Shown piece by piece: positions 4,417 to 43,872 of a stretch of DNA of 64,000 nt. The position numbers and the translations under genes were made by a program. This stretch comes from Candidatus Hydrothermarchaeum profundi (GTDB lineage: Archaea > Hydrothermarchaeota > Hydrothermarchaeia > Hydrothermarchaeales > Hydrothermarchaeaceae). The stretch is taken from assembly GCA_002011125.2 (NCBI GenBank), contig MTMF02000009.1, positions 1,456,989 to 1,520,988 of the forward strand, written 5' to 3'. Every line of letters begins with the position of its first letter. Position 1 is the stretch's first letter. Below the pieces are notes generated by a model that was given only the letters and a program-made list of their open reading frames with translations, searched no databases and had not been told where the DNA came from.

Positions 4417-5319
4417 ATGAAACATCCAGCTGTAAGCGTAGTAATCCCTACATATAACCGGGAAGATTTGTTAAAAAAATGTCTAGGGGCTGTAATTGCT
4501 CAAAGTTACCCGAAGAGTGACTATGAGATAGTCGTTGTTGACGATGGTTCGACTGATAGGACAGAAGAAGTTGTAATGAGTATTGCGAAGACTACTAGCA
4601 ACCTAAAGTATATTAGACAGGCACATAAAGGACCCGCTGCAGCAAGAAATCTAGGAATAAAAGAGGGGAGAGGGGAAATCGTCGCGTTTATAGATGATGA
4701 CTGTATTGCGGATAAGAAGTGGTTAGAGAGTTTGGTGCAATGTTTTAGTAAAGACGACAAACTAGCAGGAGTCGAAGGAAAAGTAATTGCAGAAGGCAAG
4801 ACGCCTTTTACTCATCAAGTTGAGAATTTGAAAGGAAACTTTTATTTAACGGCGAATATAGCTTATAAGAAAAAAGTTCTTTTAGAAACGGGACTCTTTG
4901 ATGAAGGCTTTCCATATCCTGCAAGTGAAGATTGGGATTTGGCATTTAAGATACTTAAAAGGGGGGAAAAAATCAAGTTCTGTGAAAGAGCGGTTGTTGT
5001 TCACCCCTCTAGAGAACTATCACTAAAGCAATGGTTAAAGTCAACTTGGATACAGTGGGCAACGGTGGATAGGCTTTATCAAAGGCACAAAGAACTATGG
5101 AAAAAAACTACAGGGCACACTCTAATGCGCTCCTTTTTTGATGGTGTTTTCCTTTATTTTTTTGTATTTTCAAAAAGGTGGAGAAATTATCTTATCTCCA
5201 ATCCACGGAAGCTACCTAAATTTATTGTTTTCTATATTCTGCAAAGTCTAATCATTGCATTTTTTGCTGTAAGGTACCTGATAAACTTATCAAAAAATCT
5301 CATAACGGGGAGAGGATAA
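4417..5319 (+). CDS. GT2-family glycosyltransferase
   Basis: The 300-residue GT-A protein starts with VSVVIPTYNREDLLKKCL, has the VVDDGSTD nucleotide-binding strand near residue 41 and a metal-binding DxD-like AFIDDDC near residue 91. It also has the SEDWDLAFKI segment typical of the catalytic acid region. A hydrophobic stretch near the C-terminus (FIVFYILQSLIIAFFAVRYLI) probably anchors it to the membrane. It is a single gene on this strand, with an AT-rich TATA-like stretch about 40 bases upstream. It probably adds one sugar to a lipid carrier. Confidence 0.88.
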   Translation: MKHPAVSVVIPTYNREDLLKKCLGAVIAQSYPKSDYEIVVVDDGSTDRTEEVVMSIAKTTSNLKYIRQAHKGPAAARNLGIKEGRGEIVAFIDDDCIADKKWLESLVQCFSKDDKLAGVEGKVIAEGKTPFTHQVENLKGNFYLTANIAYKKKVLLETGLFDEGFPYPASEDWDLAFKILKRGEKIKFCERAVVVHPSRELSLKQWLKSTWIQWATVDRLYQRHKELWKKTTGHTLMRSFFDGVFLYFFVFSKRWRNYLISNPRKLPKFIVFYILQSLIIAFFAVRYLINLSKNLITGRG

Positions 5320-5482
5320 GATGTTTTTAAGTGAATAATTTTTCCATACTCTGTGGGGTATTAAAACCGGATTCATCCAATAATATTCTAATTTCTCTTT
5401 TCTCTTTCAACTGGGATGTAAAAGAACATAGGCCTCATACTAGATAATATCTCTGCAATAATAACGTGTAGATAAGATGCGT

Positions 5483-6592
5483 TTATGTCTCACTCACTAC
5501 TTCGTACATATTTATTATATTTTTTAATACATTTTCTTTTGAGAATCTTTCCTCTGCCCTTTCTCTAGCTTTCTTTCCCATTCTATGCCGGAAATTGTCA
5601 TTTAAATATTTTCTGAGTGCGCTGGTTAGATTGCCTTGCTTGCTCATATCAATAAGAGTTCCTCCTTCATCAACAATCCACGTGGTTATGGGAGTCTTCT
5701 GGACAATAACAGGGATACCGCTGGCCATTGCTTCAAGAATGGCAATACCGAATTGCTCTGTTAAGCTTCCTAATACAAATACATCAGACGATCCATAGAC
5801 CCTCGGTATCTCTTTCATTGGAACATTTTTCATAAAGAATATGCGATCGCCGAGCATTTTTTTTCCCATTTTTATTACTTTTTCAGTTTCTTGTTCTACA
5901 TGTCCTGCTATAATTAGATACGCGTCCTCTAGTTCTGCTACTTCCTCTATTACGTAATCCATTCTTTTAATTCTCGTTTGGATAGCACCTACAGAGAGAA
6001 CGACAAAAGCATCTTCAGGGATCCCTAGACTTTCTCTAATACTCCAAGCATTTGTGGGAGTGAATTTTTTTGTGTCAACGAAATGGGGAATCATAAACCA
6101 TTTATTAGTATTAAAGCCTGCTTTCTTTGCCTTTTCGAGGTAGTGTGGTGCGAAAAGGTGTAAATGTTCGAAGGCCAGAGGCCATCTTGGAGGGTTTTTA
6201 ATATCTTTAATCTCTAGACTAGTAGCAAAAATTACTTTTGTCTTCAGTAAGCCTAACTTCTTTACTCTCATTAACAGGCTAGCTACGCCTGCGTCAGCGA
6301 GGTGTACAATATCATAATTTTTAAGCCTTAAGGATAAAGGAATAGAAAACGTTATTTGCTCTAGTAAGTAACGGTAGAACCCGGGAATTATGCTTTTGTT
6401 CCATCCAACAAGCCGAGAATCTCTTTTAATACAGGGCAGTATCTCCTCTATCTCCGATTCTCTATCTCCTCCACCTTTAAATAGTGTGACATCAACACCT
6501 TTTTTATTAAGAGCATAAGCAAGCTCTCTTGCCCACGATTCAATTCCTCTGTAGATATGTCCAAGGCCACTAGAAGCAATAGCTACTTTCAT
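5483..6592 (-). CDS. GT4-family glycosyltransferase
   Basis: This 369-residue GT-B protein has an N-terminal SSGLGHIYRGIESWARELAYAL acceptor-binding segment. The GT4 C-terminal motif is EQFGIAILEAMASGIPVIVQ (about residues 284-303). No transmembrane segment is visible. It is divergent from the methyltransferase at 6659, with only 66 bases between the two starts. The 163-base gap on its 3' side carries no supportable gene. Donor and acceptor sugars are unknown. Confidence 0.85.
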   Translation of the reverse strand: MKVAIASSGLGHIYRGIESWARELAYALNKKGVDVTLFKGGGDRESEIEEILPCIKRDSRLVGWNKSIIPGFYRYLLEQITFSIPLSLRLKNYDIVHLADAGVASLLMRVKKLGLLKTKVIFATSLEIKDIKNPPRWPLAFEHLHLFAPHYLEKAKKAGFNTNKWFMIPHFVDTKKFTPTNAWSIRESLGIPEDAFVVLSVGAIQTRIKRMDYVIEEVAELEDAYLIIAGHVEQETEKVIKMGKKMLGDRIFFMKNVPMKEIPRVYGSSDVFVLGSLTEQFGIAILEAMASGIPVIVQKTPITTWIVDEGGTLIDMSKQGNLTSALRKYLNDNFRHRMGKKARERAEERFSKENVLKNIINMYEVVSET

Positions 6593-19450: not shown

Positions 19451-20641
19451 TTATTTTTTCTTTTTATGTACTAGGAGATCTATTCCTAAATCTTTGGGGG
19501 AGGATCCTCTTTTTTTTGCTAAATACATCATCTTAGATGCTTTAGAAAGTTCTGTAATACAGCCTTTTGTTTTATGGCTAGCTTCAGTAGTAAAAACTAA
19601 ATCAGCACCACATTCGCTAGCTATTCCACATAAAACTGCGTTTATTCCAATAGAATCAGCATCAATAAGTTCTGTAACATTTCCAATCCCCATTAACATT
19701 GGAATATTATGATAAAGACGACCAAATTTTCTATAAGCTATTATAGAGTCTGACAATCCAAAATTAATTGGCTTCAGTATAGGATCAGCAATTACTTTTT
19801 GAAAGTTTCTTTCTTTAGCTAATTTAATATTATTCTCTAGAAATTTAATCCTTTCATCCGGATTATCTGGTATCACTCCCTTTTTCATAGGAAGAATGAC
19901 AGCAGCCTGTTCTACTCTTTTAAAATTTTTTATCATACTCTCATCAAAGCTGAGAATTAGATCTATACCTTCTTCAATAGCGCATTCTATATTTTTTTTG
20001 TTAAGAGTATCTATAGAGAGAGGTTTTCTTAATTTTTTAAGTTCTGGGACAACTTCTCTAATTTTGTCTTCATCTTCTTTATTTAAACCTAAATCTATAA
20101 TATCCGCTCCAGATCTAATATAATACTTCGCAATTTTTATTATCTCGTCTAAGTTTTTACTACTAATATCCACAATTTCAGCGACTATTCTAATTGGGAA
20201 ATCTTTACCGACGGGTAATTCTCCAATTAGAATGTTTCTTGAAGTTTTTAGTGTTTCTCTTATGTAATCAGGGGACTTGAGTTTTTCAAATTCTTCTAAG
20301 GCTTTTTTCTTTTTATAATCTACTAAAAACTCGTCAGCTGGAATATCCTTTGAAAGAGGGATCTTTTCGATATTTTCTAAGAGTATGTCGAGGTCTGCAA
20401 TATCCTTTGGGCCTCTATATGTTTTTATACCTAGAGTATTCTCTATCTCGCTTAGATCTGCATCTACAAGCCCAGGTAGAATCAGGATATCGTAGTTTTT
20501 CTTTACACTTTTTTTAATGAGTTCTGGGGTAAGAAACGTAGCCACTTCGAGAGGAGGTATATACACATCGCATCCGTATCTTCTAGCTATATCTTTAACA
20601 TAATTTTCAGTAGATTTGGCACTTATGAGGAGTACTTTGAT
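19451..20641 (-). CDS. Dihydropteroate synthase-like protein, with probable ATC start
   Basis: The ORF-track start (GTG at 20566) cuts into the protein. The frame stays open upstream, and translation from ATC at 20641 gives MKVLLISAKSTENYVKDIAR, which looks like the intact N-terminus of this archaeal family. A Shine-Dalgarno-like GAGGTG lies about 5 bases before the ATC, and no ATG, GTG or TTG exists upstream of 20566 in frame. The 396-residue product has an N-terminal domain of about 130 residues and a C-terminal pterin-binding TIM barrel (SGADIIDLGLNKED, RKPLSIDTLNKKNIECAIEEG, PMLMGIGNVTELIDADSIGINA). Such proteins are linked to methanopterin synthesis in methanogens, but the exact reaction is not settled. 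Confidence 0.78.
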   Translation of the reverse strand: MKVLLISAKSTENYVKDIARRYGCDVYIPPLEVATFLTPELIKKSVKKNYDILILPGLVDADLSEIENTLGIKTYRGPKDIADLDILLENIEKIPLSKDIPADEFLVDYKKKKALEEFEKLKSPDYIRETLKTSRNILIGELPVGKDFPIRIVAEIVDISSKNLDEIIKIAKYYIRSGADIIDLGLNKEDEDKIREVVPELKKLRKPLSIDTLNKKNIECAIEEGIDLILSFDESMIKNFKRVEQAAVILPMKKGVIPDNPDERIKFLENNIKLAKERNFQKVIADPILKPINFGLSDSIIAYRKFGRLYHNIPMLMGIGNVTELIDADSIGINAVLCGIASECGADLVFTTEASHKTKGCITELSKASKMMYLAKKRGSSPKDLGIDLLVHKKKK

Positions 20642-33693: not shown

Positions 33694-34223
33694 TTGGTAT
33701 CCTCCGGAAGCTTCCATTTTTCTCTATCCCACATTAGTTTTATTATGCTACCAGCATCAAATTTTGCATCCTCTGTTACCCTTACCATCACAATCCCCTC
33801 ATCTGGCTGGCCATATAAAATTACAGAATCCCAGTCAGCTTCTACGATGCATGGCAATACGGCTAGGTCCTCCTCACCGTCTACGATGATGAGAGTACCC
33901 TCTCTCTCCAATCCTTTATGGATTTTATCCCATAAATCCCTACTTATCATTCCCGGAGGGTTTTTTGCTTGTAATGCATGTTTCTTGATGTCGAATTTCT
34001 CTTTTATATCTCTCTTGGTCTTAAGATCTACTACGGCTAGATAAGGCTTTACACCTACAGCTAATACATTTTTAAGGGTAGTGTCTCCAACCACAATTAC
34101 TTTCTCGCCTTTTAATTCCTTTTTTATCTCTTCGGCAGGTTTAAGACCCTCCCCCCGATAGATTTTTCCAAAGGGCTTTTTTAATAGGCCTCGGACCTCT
34201 TCAGGTAATATAAGATCTTTCAT
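33690..34223 (-). CDS. GTP-dependent dephospho-CoA kinase (DUF359)
   Basis: The 177-residue protein matches archaeal DUF359: LILPEEVRGLLKKPFGKIYRG, VIVVGDTTLKNVLAVG, LAVVDLKTKR and IIVDGEEDLAVLPCIVEA. Members phosphorylate dephospho-CoA with GTP, the last step of archaeal coenzyme A synthesis. It overlaps S24e and spt4 by 4 bases each, so it is co-translated with the ribosome and polymerase genes. Confidence 0.9.
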   Translation of the reverse strand: MKDLILPEEVRGLLKKPFGKIYRGEGLKPAEEIKKELKGEKVIVVGDTTLKNVLAVGVKPYLAVVDLKTKRDIKEKFDIKKHALQAKNPPGMISRDLWDKIHKGLEREGTLIIVDGEEDLAVLPCIVEADWDSVILYGQPDEGIVMVRVTEDAKFDAGSIIKLMWDREKWKLPEDTK

Positions 34224-34405
34224 CCTTTTACCCTCAACGCATATTTACCTTTAACTTTAATATCCAACTTTTCAGCGATTAGAGAATTTTCAGGGTCTAT
34301 AACACTCACGTAGCCCATCCAGTCAGCTGAAGTTGCGACCTTGCATATTGGGCATATATCAAGATTTGTTATCATCTTGCATTCTTTACAAGCTTTCTCT
34401 TTCAT
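34220..34405 (-). CDS. spt4: Transcription elongation factor Spt4 (RNA polymerase subunit E'')
   Basis: The 61-residue zinc protein has KACKECKMI and DICPICKV, the two CxxC pairs of Spt4, and DWMGYVSVIDPENSLIAEKL. It pairs with Spt5/NusG to increase polymerase processivity. It starts immediately after the rpo7 stop and overlaps the dephospho-CoA kinase by 4 bases. Confidence 0.94.
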   Translation of the reverse strand: MKEKACKECKMITNLDICPICKVATSADWMGYVSVIDPENSLIAEKLDIKVKGKYALRVKG

Positions 34406-35029
34406 TTATTTTTCCTCTTTAGCAGCTTTTTTATCTTTCATTGCGCCTTCTTTACTTTTCTTTTCTTCTTCTAGCCATTCAAATTTACCTAAACCAGGTT
34501 GTCGCATTGTAAGATTTATTTTACTCTCTTTTTCTTTTTCTGAACTCAGGCTTATGGCGACTACACGGGCTCTAACTTTGTCACCTACTTGAAGTACTCT
34601 ATTTGTTTCTTTACCGATCAATGCTTCTCTCTTTTTGTCATATATTATGAAGTCGTCTGTTATTTGAGATACGTGAATTAATCCATCCAGCGACCCAAAT
34701 CTGACAAAAGCTCCGAATTCTACTATTTCTACTACTTCTCCGTCTAGTATCTCATGAAGTTCTGGCTTAAAGACCAAGGCTTCGAACTTAGTATTGTGAA
34801 AAGCGGCTCCATCTCCGGGAATAACGCTGCCATCATCTATCTCTTTAATATCGGTTATAGCCAGTACGGCTCCTAAGTCTTTATCAATTTTACCTTCGTA
34901 TCCTCCTTCTCTACGTCCTTTGTAGCTATAACCCACTTTTAGAATATTATCAATCACGTCACCTAAGGGCTTTCCAAACATTTCTGGCGGTACTCTCACC
35001 AGATCCTCTAAGACCACTAATTTGAATAT
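34406..35029 (-). CDS. rpo7: DNA-directed RNA polymerase subunit Rpo7 (RpoE1), probable ATA start
   Basis: The track start (GTG 35017) lies 18 bases after the Shine-Dalgarno sequence AGGAGGT, too far for normal use. Reading from ATA at 35029 (spacing 6) gives MFKLVVLEDLVRVPPEMFG, which aligns exactly with the family N-terminus MYKKVVLED. An in-frame TAA lies 5 codons further up, and no NTG codon occurs between them. The 207-residue product has the tip and S1/OB domains (EIVEFGAFVRFGSLDGLIHVSQI). A charged 40-residue C-terminal tail is an extension. It forms the polymerase stalk with Rpo4. Confidence 0.9.
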   Translation of the reverse strand: MFKLVVLEDLVRVPPEMFGKPLGDVIDNILKVGYSYKGRREGGYEGKIDKDLGAVLAITDIKEIDDGSVIPGDGAAFHNTKFEALVFKPELHEILDGEVVEIVEFGAFVRFGSLDGLIHVSQITDDFIIYDKKREALIGKETNRVLQVGDKVRARVVAISLSSEKEKESKINLTMRQPGLGKFEWLEEEKKSKEGAMKDKKAAKEEK

Positions 35030-35041
35030 GGTGATACCTCC

Positions 35042-35431
35042 TTATTTCAAATATCCTTCAATGGTTAAGTATTTTTTTTGCCTTAAATAAATGATAGGTG
35101 CCCCCTTTTTTCTTATCTTCTCCTTTAAAACCTTATCGTTTGTACAAATAATAGTATCTCTTGATGCAAGATTTAGTAGGATATCGTCGGGATTTCCTTT
35201 TATATCAAGTAATTTCATTTTTTTTACCTCATGTAATGCAGCTCGTGCATATTGGGCACTAGTTCCCTTCTTTTTTGAGAGTTTTTCTAGTTCTTCAATA
35301 ACTCCTTTCAAGGTGTATACTTCGTATTTAACATCCAAGATTCTTTCAATCTCAGAACGAATATCAACGCCAAATTGAAACTGAGATAGAATAAAGTTCG
35401 TATCTAATATTACTTTATATGATTGTTCCGT
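35042..35431 (-). CDS. PIN-domain protein (Fcf1/Utp24-like), probable ACG start
   Basis: The track start (TTG 35338) removes the active-site N-terminus. The upstream frame reads [18 protein letters not shown], then [14 protein letters not shown]. The ILDTNF motif with its catalytic Asp is essential for PIN nucleases. No ATG, GTG or TTG is present between the in-frame TAG and that TTG. ACG at 35431 is the best candidate, about 10 bases after GGTGGAGG. The 129-residue product has SQFQFGVDI and [23 protein letters not shown], as in archaeal proteins related to eukaryotic Fcf1. A role in rRNA processing is inferred. It overlaps aIF2 gamma by 17 bases. Confidence 0.82.
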
Positions 35432-43200: not shown

Positions 43201-43872
43201 TTAATGGTGAGAGGATTTTAGACTTAGTGATAAAAATAAGTGGTCTTTCTCATATGGACTTAGATCGATGCTTTGTTCTATTTGAAAAACCTTTCTCAGT
43301 TTTCTTTTCTCTCTTCTGAAGATAGTTTCCGGCCTTTCCGCTACGTCTATACTTCGGGCTTTTACAGCTAGTAGTGCATGCCCCTCTTTTTTTAGGAAAT
43401 ATTCTGCATTAATGGTAAGTATCTCTGTTTGATTAGGCTGAGCTATATCTTGGTAAATTATGTCGACTTCTTCTAGCAATGGACTATACTCTTCAGGGTT
43501 TGACGCGTTCCCAAGGATAGGTATTAGGTTGTTTCTCTTTCTACTATTCTCAAGTAGTCCGAGGTATGCTTTTTTAGAAAATTCGATACAGTATACTACT
43601 CCTTCTGTAGCCACATCAGAGACATGGGAAGCAGTAGTTCCGGTTGCAGCTCCTAAGTACAGTATCTTTGAGTTTTTTTCAATAGGAAGGTTTTCTAGCC
43701 CATTCAGGATAGCCGCTGCGAGTTTACTTCTTGTAGGATTCCATAGCCTATATTCCTCTCCATTAATCTCAATTAATCTCTCGCCGTAGACGTTAAGTCC
43801 TGGCGTATAATTTTTGGTAGCAAGTCTGTCTCCTAGCAGATATATGCCTGGAAATTTTTCTTCTACCTGCGT
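43201..43872 (-). CDS. flpA: Fibrillarin-like rRNA/tRNA 2'-O-methyltransferase, probable ACG start
   Basis: The track starts at an internal GTG (43614) and misses 86 residues. The frame continues upstream as QVEEKFPGIYLLGDRLATKN, with YGERLIEINGEEYRLWNPTRSKLAAAI, the standard fibrillarin N-terminus, and motif I ILYLGAATGTTASHVSD. Between the in-frame TAA and the first NTG codon there is only ACG at 43872 in a good position, 8 bases after GGAGG within GGGGAGGG. The product would be 223 residues, the usual length. It methylates ribose targets chosen by C/D guide RNAs with Nop5 and L7Ae. It overlaps nop5 by 10 bases. Confidence 0.92.
   Translation of the reverse strand, partial: TQVEEKFPGIYLLGDRLATKNYTPGLNVYGERLIEINGEEYRLWNPTRSKLAAAILNGLENLPIEKNSKILYLGAATGTTASHVSDVATEGVVYCIEFSKKAYLGLLENSRKRNNLIPILGNASNPEEYSPLLEEVDIIYQDIAQPNQTEILTINAEYFLKKEGHALLAVKARSIDVAERPETIFRREKRKLRKVFQIEQSIDLSPYEKDHLFLSLSLKSSHH

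Follow-up and report, generated by a model that had tools for sequence, protein, structure and literature searches.

Probable AUA initiation of rpo7 in Candidatus Hydrothermarchaeum profundi and recurrence of AUH at the homologous position across its class

Rpo7 is a stalk subunit of RNA polymerase. In the window (the whole 64,000-nucleotide stretch of Candidatus Hydrothermarchaeum profundi DNA that was analysed), its gene appears to be translated from an AUA codon, and in the archaeal class concerned the start of rpo7 would typically be AUH (AUA, AUU or AUC). Of 22 class genomes, 17 have AUH at the homologous position, which indicates that the ATA is not due to chance. Initiation at AUH in rpo7 is considered very likely, and the conservation of this codon suggests a deliberately weak translation of the gene. 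Initiation at AUA had been put forward in the initial annotation and is supported as the best reading of the DNA. The class-wide conservation, the variable third base and further non-NTG starts in the same genome go beyond that annotation.

The rpo7 start site

The gene belongs to a run that includes those of aIF2 gamma, a PIN-domain protein, Spt4, a DUF359 protein, S24e and S27ae (Table 1). On the minus strand, the start region reads AAATAAGGAGGTATCACC-ATA-TTC-AAA-TTA-GTG. As first described, six bases (ATCACC) separate the Shine-Dalgarno sequence AGGAGGT from the ATA. This distance, 7 nt counted from the final G of GGAGG, is the commonest one in the two genomes sampled. The in-frame TAA reported five codons upstream of the ATA is also confirmed. 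It is the stop codon of the PIN-domain gene, which overlaps the Shine-Dalgarno sequence by one base at 12 bases from the ATA. No conserved RNA structure or hairpin was found over the start: z was -2.2 in the window, and in three relatives it was positive or close to zero.

Translation from the ATA to the stop at 34406 yields (M)FKLVVLEDLVRVPP..., a protein that consists of an SHS2 Rpb7-N domain (PF03876, 51.8 bits) and an S1 domain (PF00575, 52.1 bits). These domains and the full-length alignment place it in the Rpo7 family. The solved archaeal Rpo7/RpoE' proteins (PDB 1go3, 4qiw, 8cro) are the same protein, full length from Met1. The alignment with M. jannaschii Rpo7 covers residues 2–184 of 1go3_E, residue 2 falling on residue 2, and the other chains align likewise, which puts the ATA exactly at Met1. 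The nearest solved relative has Y-K at positions 2–3.

Table 1. Position of rpo7, its start signals, its neighbours and genes with candidate non-NTG starts (window numbering unless prefixed).
Feature	Position	Strand	Basis or remark
rpo7 (RNA polymerase subunit E'/Rpo7), 207 codons from ATA	34406..35029	-	PF03876 and PF00575 above cut-off; PDB alignment from residue 2
rpo7 ATA start codon	35027..35029	-	sequence; homologous position ATA, ATT or ATC in 17/22 class genomes
Shine-Dalgarno AGGAGGT of rpo7	35036..35042	-	sequence; spacing is the genome's mode; strong in nearly all AUH members
In-frame TAA 5' of rpo7, stop of PIN-domain gene	35042..35044	-	final base shared with the 5' end of the Shine-Dalgarno sequence
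GTG at rpo7 codon 5, competing downstream start	35015..35017	-	18 bases from the Shine-Dalgarno sequence
spt4 (rpoE''), next downstream of rpo7, ATG start	34220..34405	-	PF06093; NTG start class-wide
PIN-domain gene, 5' neighbour of rpo7, with ACG (35429-35431) as probable start	35042..35431	-	PF18477; ACG aligned to ATG of G001
Fibrillarin gene, probable ACG start (43870-43872) behind GGAGG	43201..43872	-	PF01269
Pterin-binding-domain (DUF6513-like) gene, probable ATC start (20639-20641) behind GAGGTG	19451..20641	-	PF00809
rps9, probable ACG start directly after in-frame TGA, behind GAGGTGAT	L057:9057-9455	+	first NTG is codon 19
EMC3/TMCO1-like gene, probable ATT start, the only one spaced for a Shine-Dalgarno sequence	L057:546-1070	+	no NTG for about 40 codons
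MoaC gene, likely CTG start, less certain	L167:18611-19075	+	
Amidohydrolase gene, likely ACG start, less certain	L053:15795-16625	+	
CYTH-domain gene, likely ATT start, less certain	L175:7044-7547	-	

Conservation of the start codon

The comparison set comprised 23 genomes of the window's class, the only class of its phylum represented; rpo7 was found in 22. The 17 genomes with AUH belong to 10 of the 14 genera and 7 of the 10 families. At the aligned position, ATA is present in ten genomes, ATT in three (G002, G011, G021) and ATC in three (G009, G015, G019), while in G020 an ATA stands one codon 5' of it. AUH is thus carried by the two lineages that fall outside the window's order (G020 and G021). 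The other members have ACG (G003), ATG (G004) or TTG (G006, G010 and G012, three genomes of family f6). Comparison with relatives had been proposed in the initial annotation; the close ones were found to lack ATG and to have ATA, ATT or ATC. Outside the class, unlike within it, all 38 rpo7 genes examined, from many archaeal lineages, start with ATG or TTG (AUH in 0/38 versus 17/22, Fisher p = 7e-11, a guide only as the genomes are related).

A strong Shine-Dalgarno sequence (AGGAG or longer) lies 5–9 bases upstream of the start in nearly all AUH members; it is GGGGGG in G021 and GAGGTGAT in G020. In the sole ATG member, G004, AGGAGG is 15 bases from the start, a single case. The TTG of the three f6 genomes and the ATG of G004 indicate that an AUH start is not indispensable. 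In G005 (L004), unlike the other genomes, the rpo7 frame stays open over 729 codons, and the ATA has no stop close to it.

Where it is AUH, the start codon is uniform within genera, as ATA, ATC or ATT. On the tree, its third base has undergone at least three changes, none of them to G: the three genera of family f2 have ATT, ATC and ATA, and f10 and f9 show ATT versus ATA. AUG reappears once. The 22 genomes are not independent, so that the avoidance of AUG amounts to only about ten trials when lineages are counted.

A sequencing or assembly error masking a true ATG would be in keeping with an assembly in 19 contigs and with several other genes that are one base off ATG (ACG, ATC, ATT). It is nevertheless extremely improbable, as AUH is shared by 16 further genomes from different genera and families, and is uniform within genera. 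The AUH of the relatives excludes read error as a general explanation. Moreover, among some 140 orthologues only about one seems to carry a frameshift, which indicates that the assembly is not grossly poor.

Where translation begins

Substitutions were compared on either side of the start. The eight codons upstream have a pN of 0.53, with little amino-acid constraint, versus 0.20 (pS 1.0) for codons 2–4 and 0.28 (pS 0.76) for codons 2–10, which indicates that the protein begins between the two regions. Upstream NTG starts were discarded: the window has no in-frame one between the stop and the ATA, and the TTG found in G007, three codons before the start, abuts the Shine-Dalgarno sequence and is poorly positioned. 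The ATA of G008 is preceded by a TAG at a distance of two codons and followed by no NTG before codon 11; downstream of the start in G007, none occurs until codon 26. No upstream or downstream NTG is therefore usable as a common start.

A slightly shorter Rpo7 would result from initiation at a downstream NTG. The GTG at codon 5 is in frame in the window, and NTG is found at codons 5–7 in some relatives. This GTG, correctly given at the outset as the nearest NTG (35017), is however 18 bases from the Shine-Dalgarno sequence. Across the class the nearest downstream NTG is at codon 5, 6, 7, 10, 11 or 26, a position that is not conserved, whereas codons 2–4 are under purifying selection. Class members with ATG or TTG, and all the outsiders, start at the AUH position. 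Use of the downstream codon is considered very unlikely. The N-terminal peptides predicted from the AUA are MFKLVVLEDLVR or FKLVVLEDLVR, and MVLEDLVR from the GTG.

Gene finders usually accept only ATG, GTG and TTG, so that Rpo7 of this class is likely clipped at its N terminus in annotations.

Proposed decoding of the AUH codon and control genes

It is proposed that AUH is read by the ordinary initiator Met-tRNA (CAU), which would pair with its first two bases and be mismatched at the third one. The first residue of Rpo7 would then presumably be methionine despite the codon. The strong Shine-Dalgarno sequence would place the ribosome and partly compensate for the weak codon, which in turn would lower or condition the output of Rpo7 as compared with those of the neighbouring Spt4 and the partner subunit Rpo4.

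The initiator tRNA of the window's genome is ordinary, with a CAU anticodon and the archaeal GGG/CCC anticodon stem. A special initiator was looked for and rejected: the two CAU tRNAs among those read are the ordinary initiator and the elongator tRNA-Met, and no other looks like an initiator, with the reservation that ARAGORN did not call two weak tRNA hits. The tRNAs read did not include a CAU tRNA for AUA codons.

Other genes were compared in the same genomes. All 21 copies of the aIF1 gene start with ATG, spt4 starts with NTG throughout the class, and rpo4 starts with ATG, or once GTG, in 21 of 21 genomes (p = 2e-4 for rpo7 versus rpo4 counted by genera, again a guide only given relatedness). 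Among the genes compared, the class-wide pattern is thus a property of rpo7. In G013, where 395 kb were surveyed through 141 orthologue pairs with the window's genome and scans for strong Shine-Dalgarno sequences, rpo7 was the sole AUH gene found.

Archaeal initiation complexes formed on non-AUG mRNAs are destabilised by aIF1, which disfavours non-canonical starts (PMC6237735). Most simply, rejection of near-cognate starts by aIF1 would limit the output of Rpo7. Control of the rpo7 start through aIF1 is put forward tentatively. Loss of aIF1 was rejected as an explanation, since a gene of its SUI1 family was found in 20 of the 23 class genomes, the window's among them.

Proposed selection for a weak start

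The third base changed at least three times, AUG came back once, and the neighbour and partner genes use NTG; from these observations we infer selection rather than lost constraint. With few independent changes, selection for a weak start on rpo7 is something that we infer, and it is regarded as reasonably probable. The explanation as a whole, which joins AUH initiation by Met-tRNAi, a strong Shine-Dalgarno sequence and selection for a weak rpo7 start, is favoured with moderate confidence.

The AUH codon might instead be tolerated, AUG having been lost once in the ancestor of the class and a strong Shine-Dalgarno sequence having let the third base drift. The variation of that base among A, C and T fits such a drift, as do the other near-cognate starts in the window's genome, which look as if selection on starts were relaxed. 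It is at odds with the solitary AUH gene of G013 and with the NTG starts kept by aIF1, rpo4 and spt4. AUG should also have returned more often, though independent lineages are few. Drift is a possible but rather unlikely account.

Translational coupling, in which ribosomes that end the upstream gene restart at the AUH and relax the demand for AUG, would suit the overlap of the PIN stop with the Shine-Dalgarno sequence in the window. The odd-start genes rps9 and EMC3-like also seem to lie close behind an upstream stop. However, the upstream stop of rpo7 is 12 to about 57 bases away, and spt4, which is equally near the stop of rpo7, has an ATG start. The gene that precedes rpo7 also differs among genomes (the PIN-domain gene or an apparent membrane pyrophosphatase), which argues against ascribing the AUH start to a single context. 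Coupling is held to be improbable, and selection for a weak start is retained as the preferred reading.

Comparison with known systems

The product of infC, IF3, judges start codons and regulates itself. Bacterial infC starts with ATT or ATC (PMC5472188). The sigR gene of Streptomyces has a conserved GTC start (GTT in 2 of 34 species) behind a strong AGGAGGTG Shine-Dalgarno sequence; it is repressed by IF3, and a canonical start codon breaks the regulation (PMC5472188). A conserved non-NTG start and a strong, well-spaced Shine-Dalgarno sequence, which mark genes of this kind, are both found in rpo7.

Like infC, rpo7 is an information-processing gene with a conserved AUH start. Unlike infC, its product is not a fidelity factor: infC-type autoregulation does not apply, the product being Rpo7. 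The archaeal fidelity factor aIF1 was considered as an AUH gene analogous to infC and rejected, as it always starts with AUG. Like sigR, rpo7 is a gene of the transcription machinery that combines a conserved non-canonical start, a variable third base and a strong Shine-Dalgarno sequence. It differs from sigR, which is bacterial, begins with G, is controlled by IF3 and has been tested experimentally, in that it is archaeal, starts with AUH and is under a putative control. In form, rpo7 resembles sigR and is not an infC-type self-regulator.

By analogy, rpo7 might be an archaeal counterpart of infC and sigR: the stringency of aIF1 would set the amount of the Rpo4/7 stalk and couple the state of initiation to transcription, the window's lineage having in addition broadened its starts to ACG, AUC and AUU (roughly 1% of genes). 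This proposal is speculative. The open-licence literature searched held no description of a class-wide non-NTG start on one core archaeal gene. The rpo7 start provides a concrete, testable case of start-codon strength as a means of control in archaea, and raises the question of how aIF1, which checks for AUG, lets such genes through.

Other candidate starts in the genome

Starts were surveyed in 20-kb stretches covering about 0.86 Mb of the 2.19 Mb genome. The table-11 open reading frame of the PIN-domain gene starts too late, at 35338, since PF18477 is matched only from its position 35 from that TTG; the gene probably begins at ACG. In the fibrillarin gene, the first in-frame NTG comes about 86 codons past the ACG. 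The pterin-binding-domain gene has ATG (once GTG) at or beside the aligned start in 17 relatives. The start of rps9 is ATA in G003 and ATG in most other relatives. A histidine kinase gene has a candidate ATC start, which is less certain. These starts are graded no higher than probable because a single substitution separates most of them from an NTG codon.

Two further observations were made in passing. At L049, about 4600–5850 (minus strand), consecutive segments of one G013 protein are matched by two frames that overlap, possibly owing to a frameshift or an assembly error. A tRNA-Pyl (CUA) gene (L052:1584-1653, minus strand) stands beside pylS (G000:C9:1320440-1321159, minus strand; TIGR02367, 294.5 bits), which among the class is over the cut-off in the window's genome only; UAG may be read as pyrrolysine in this genome.
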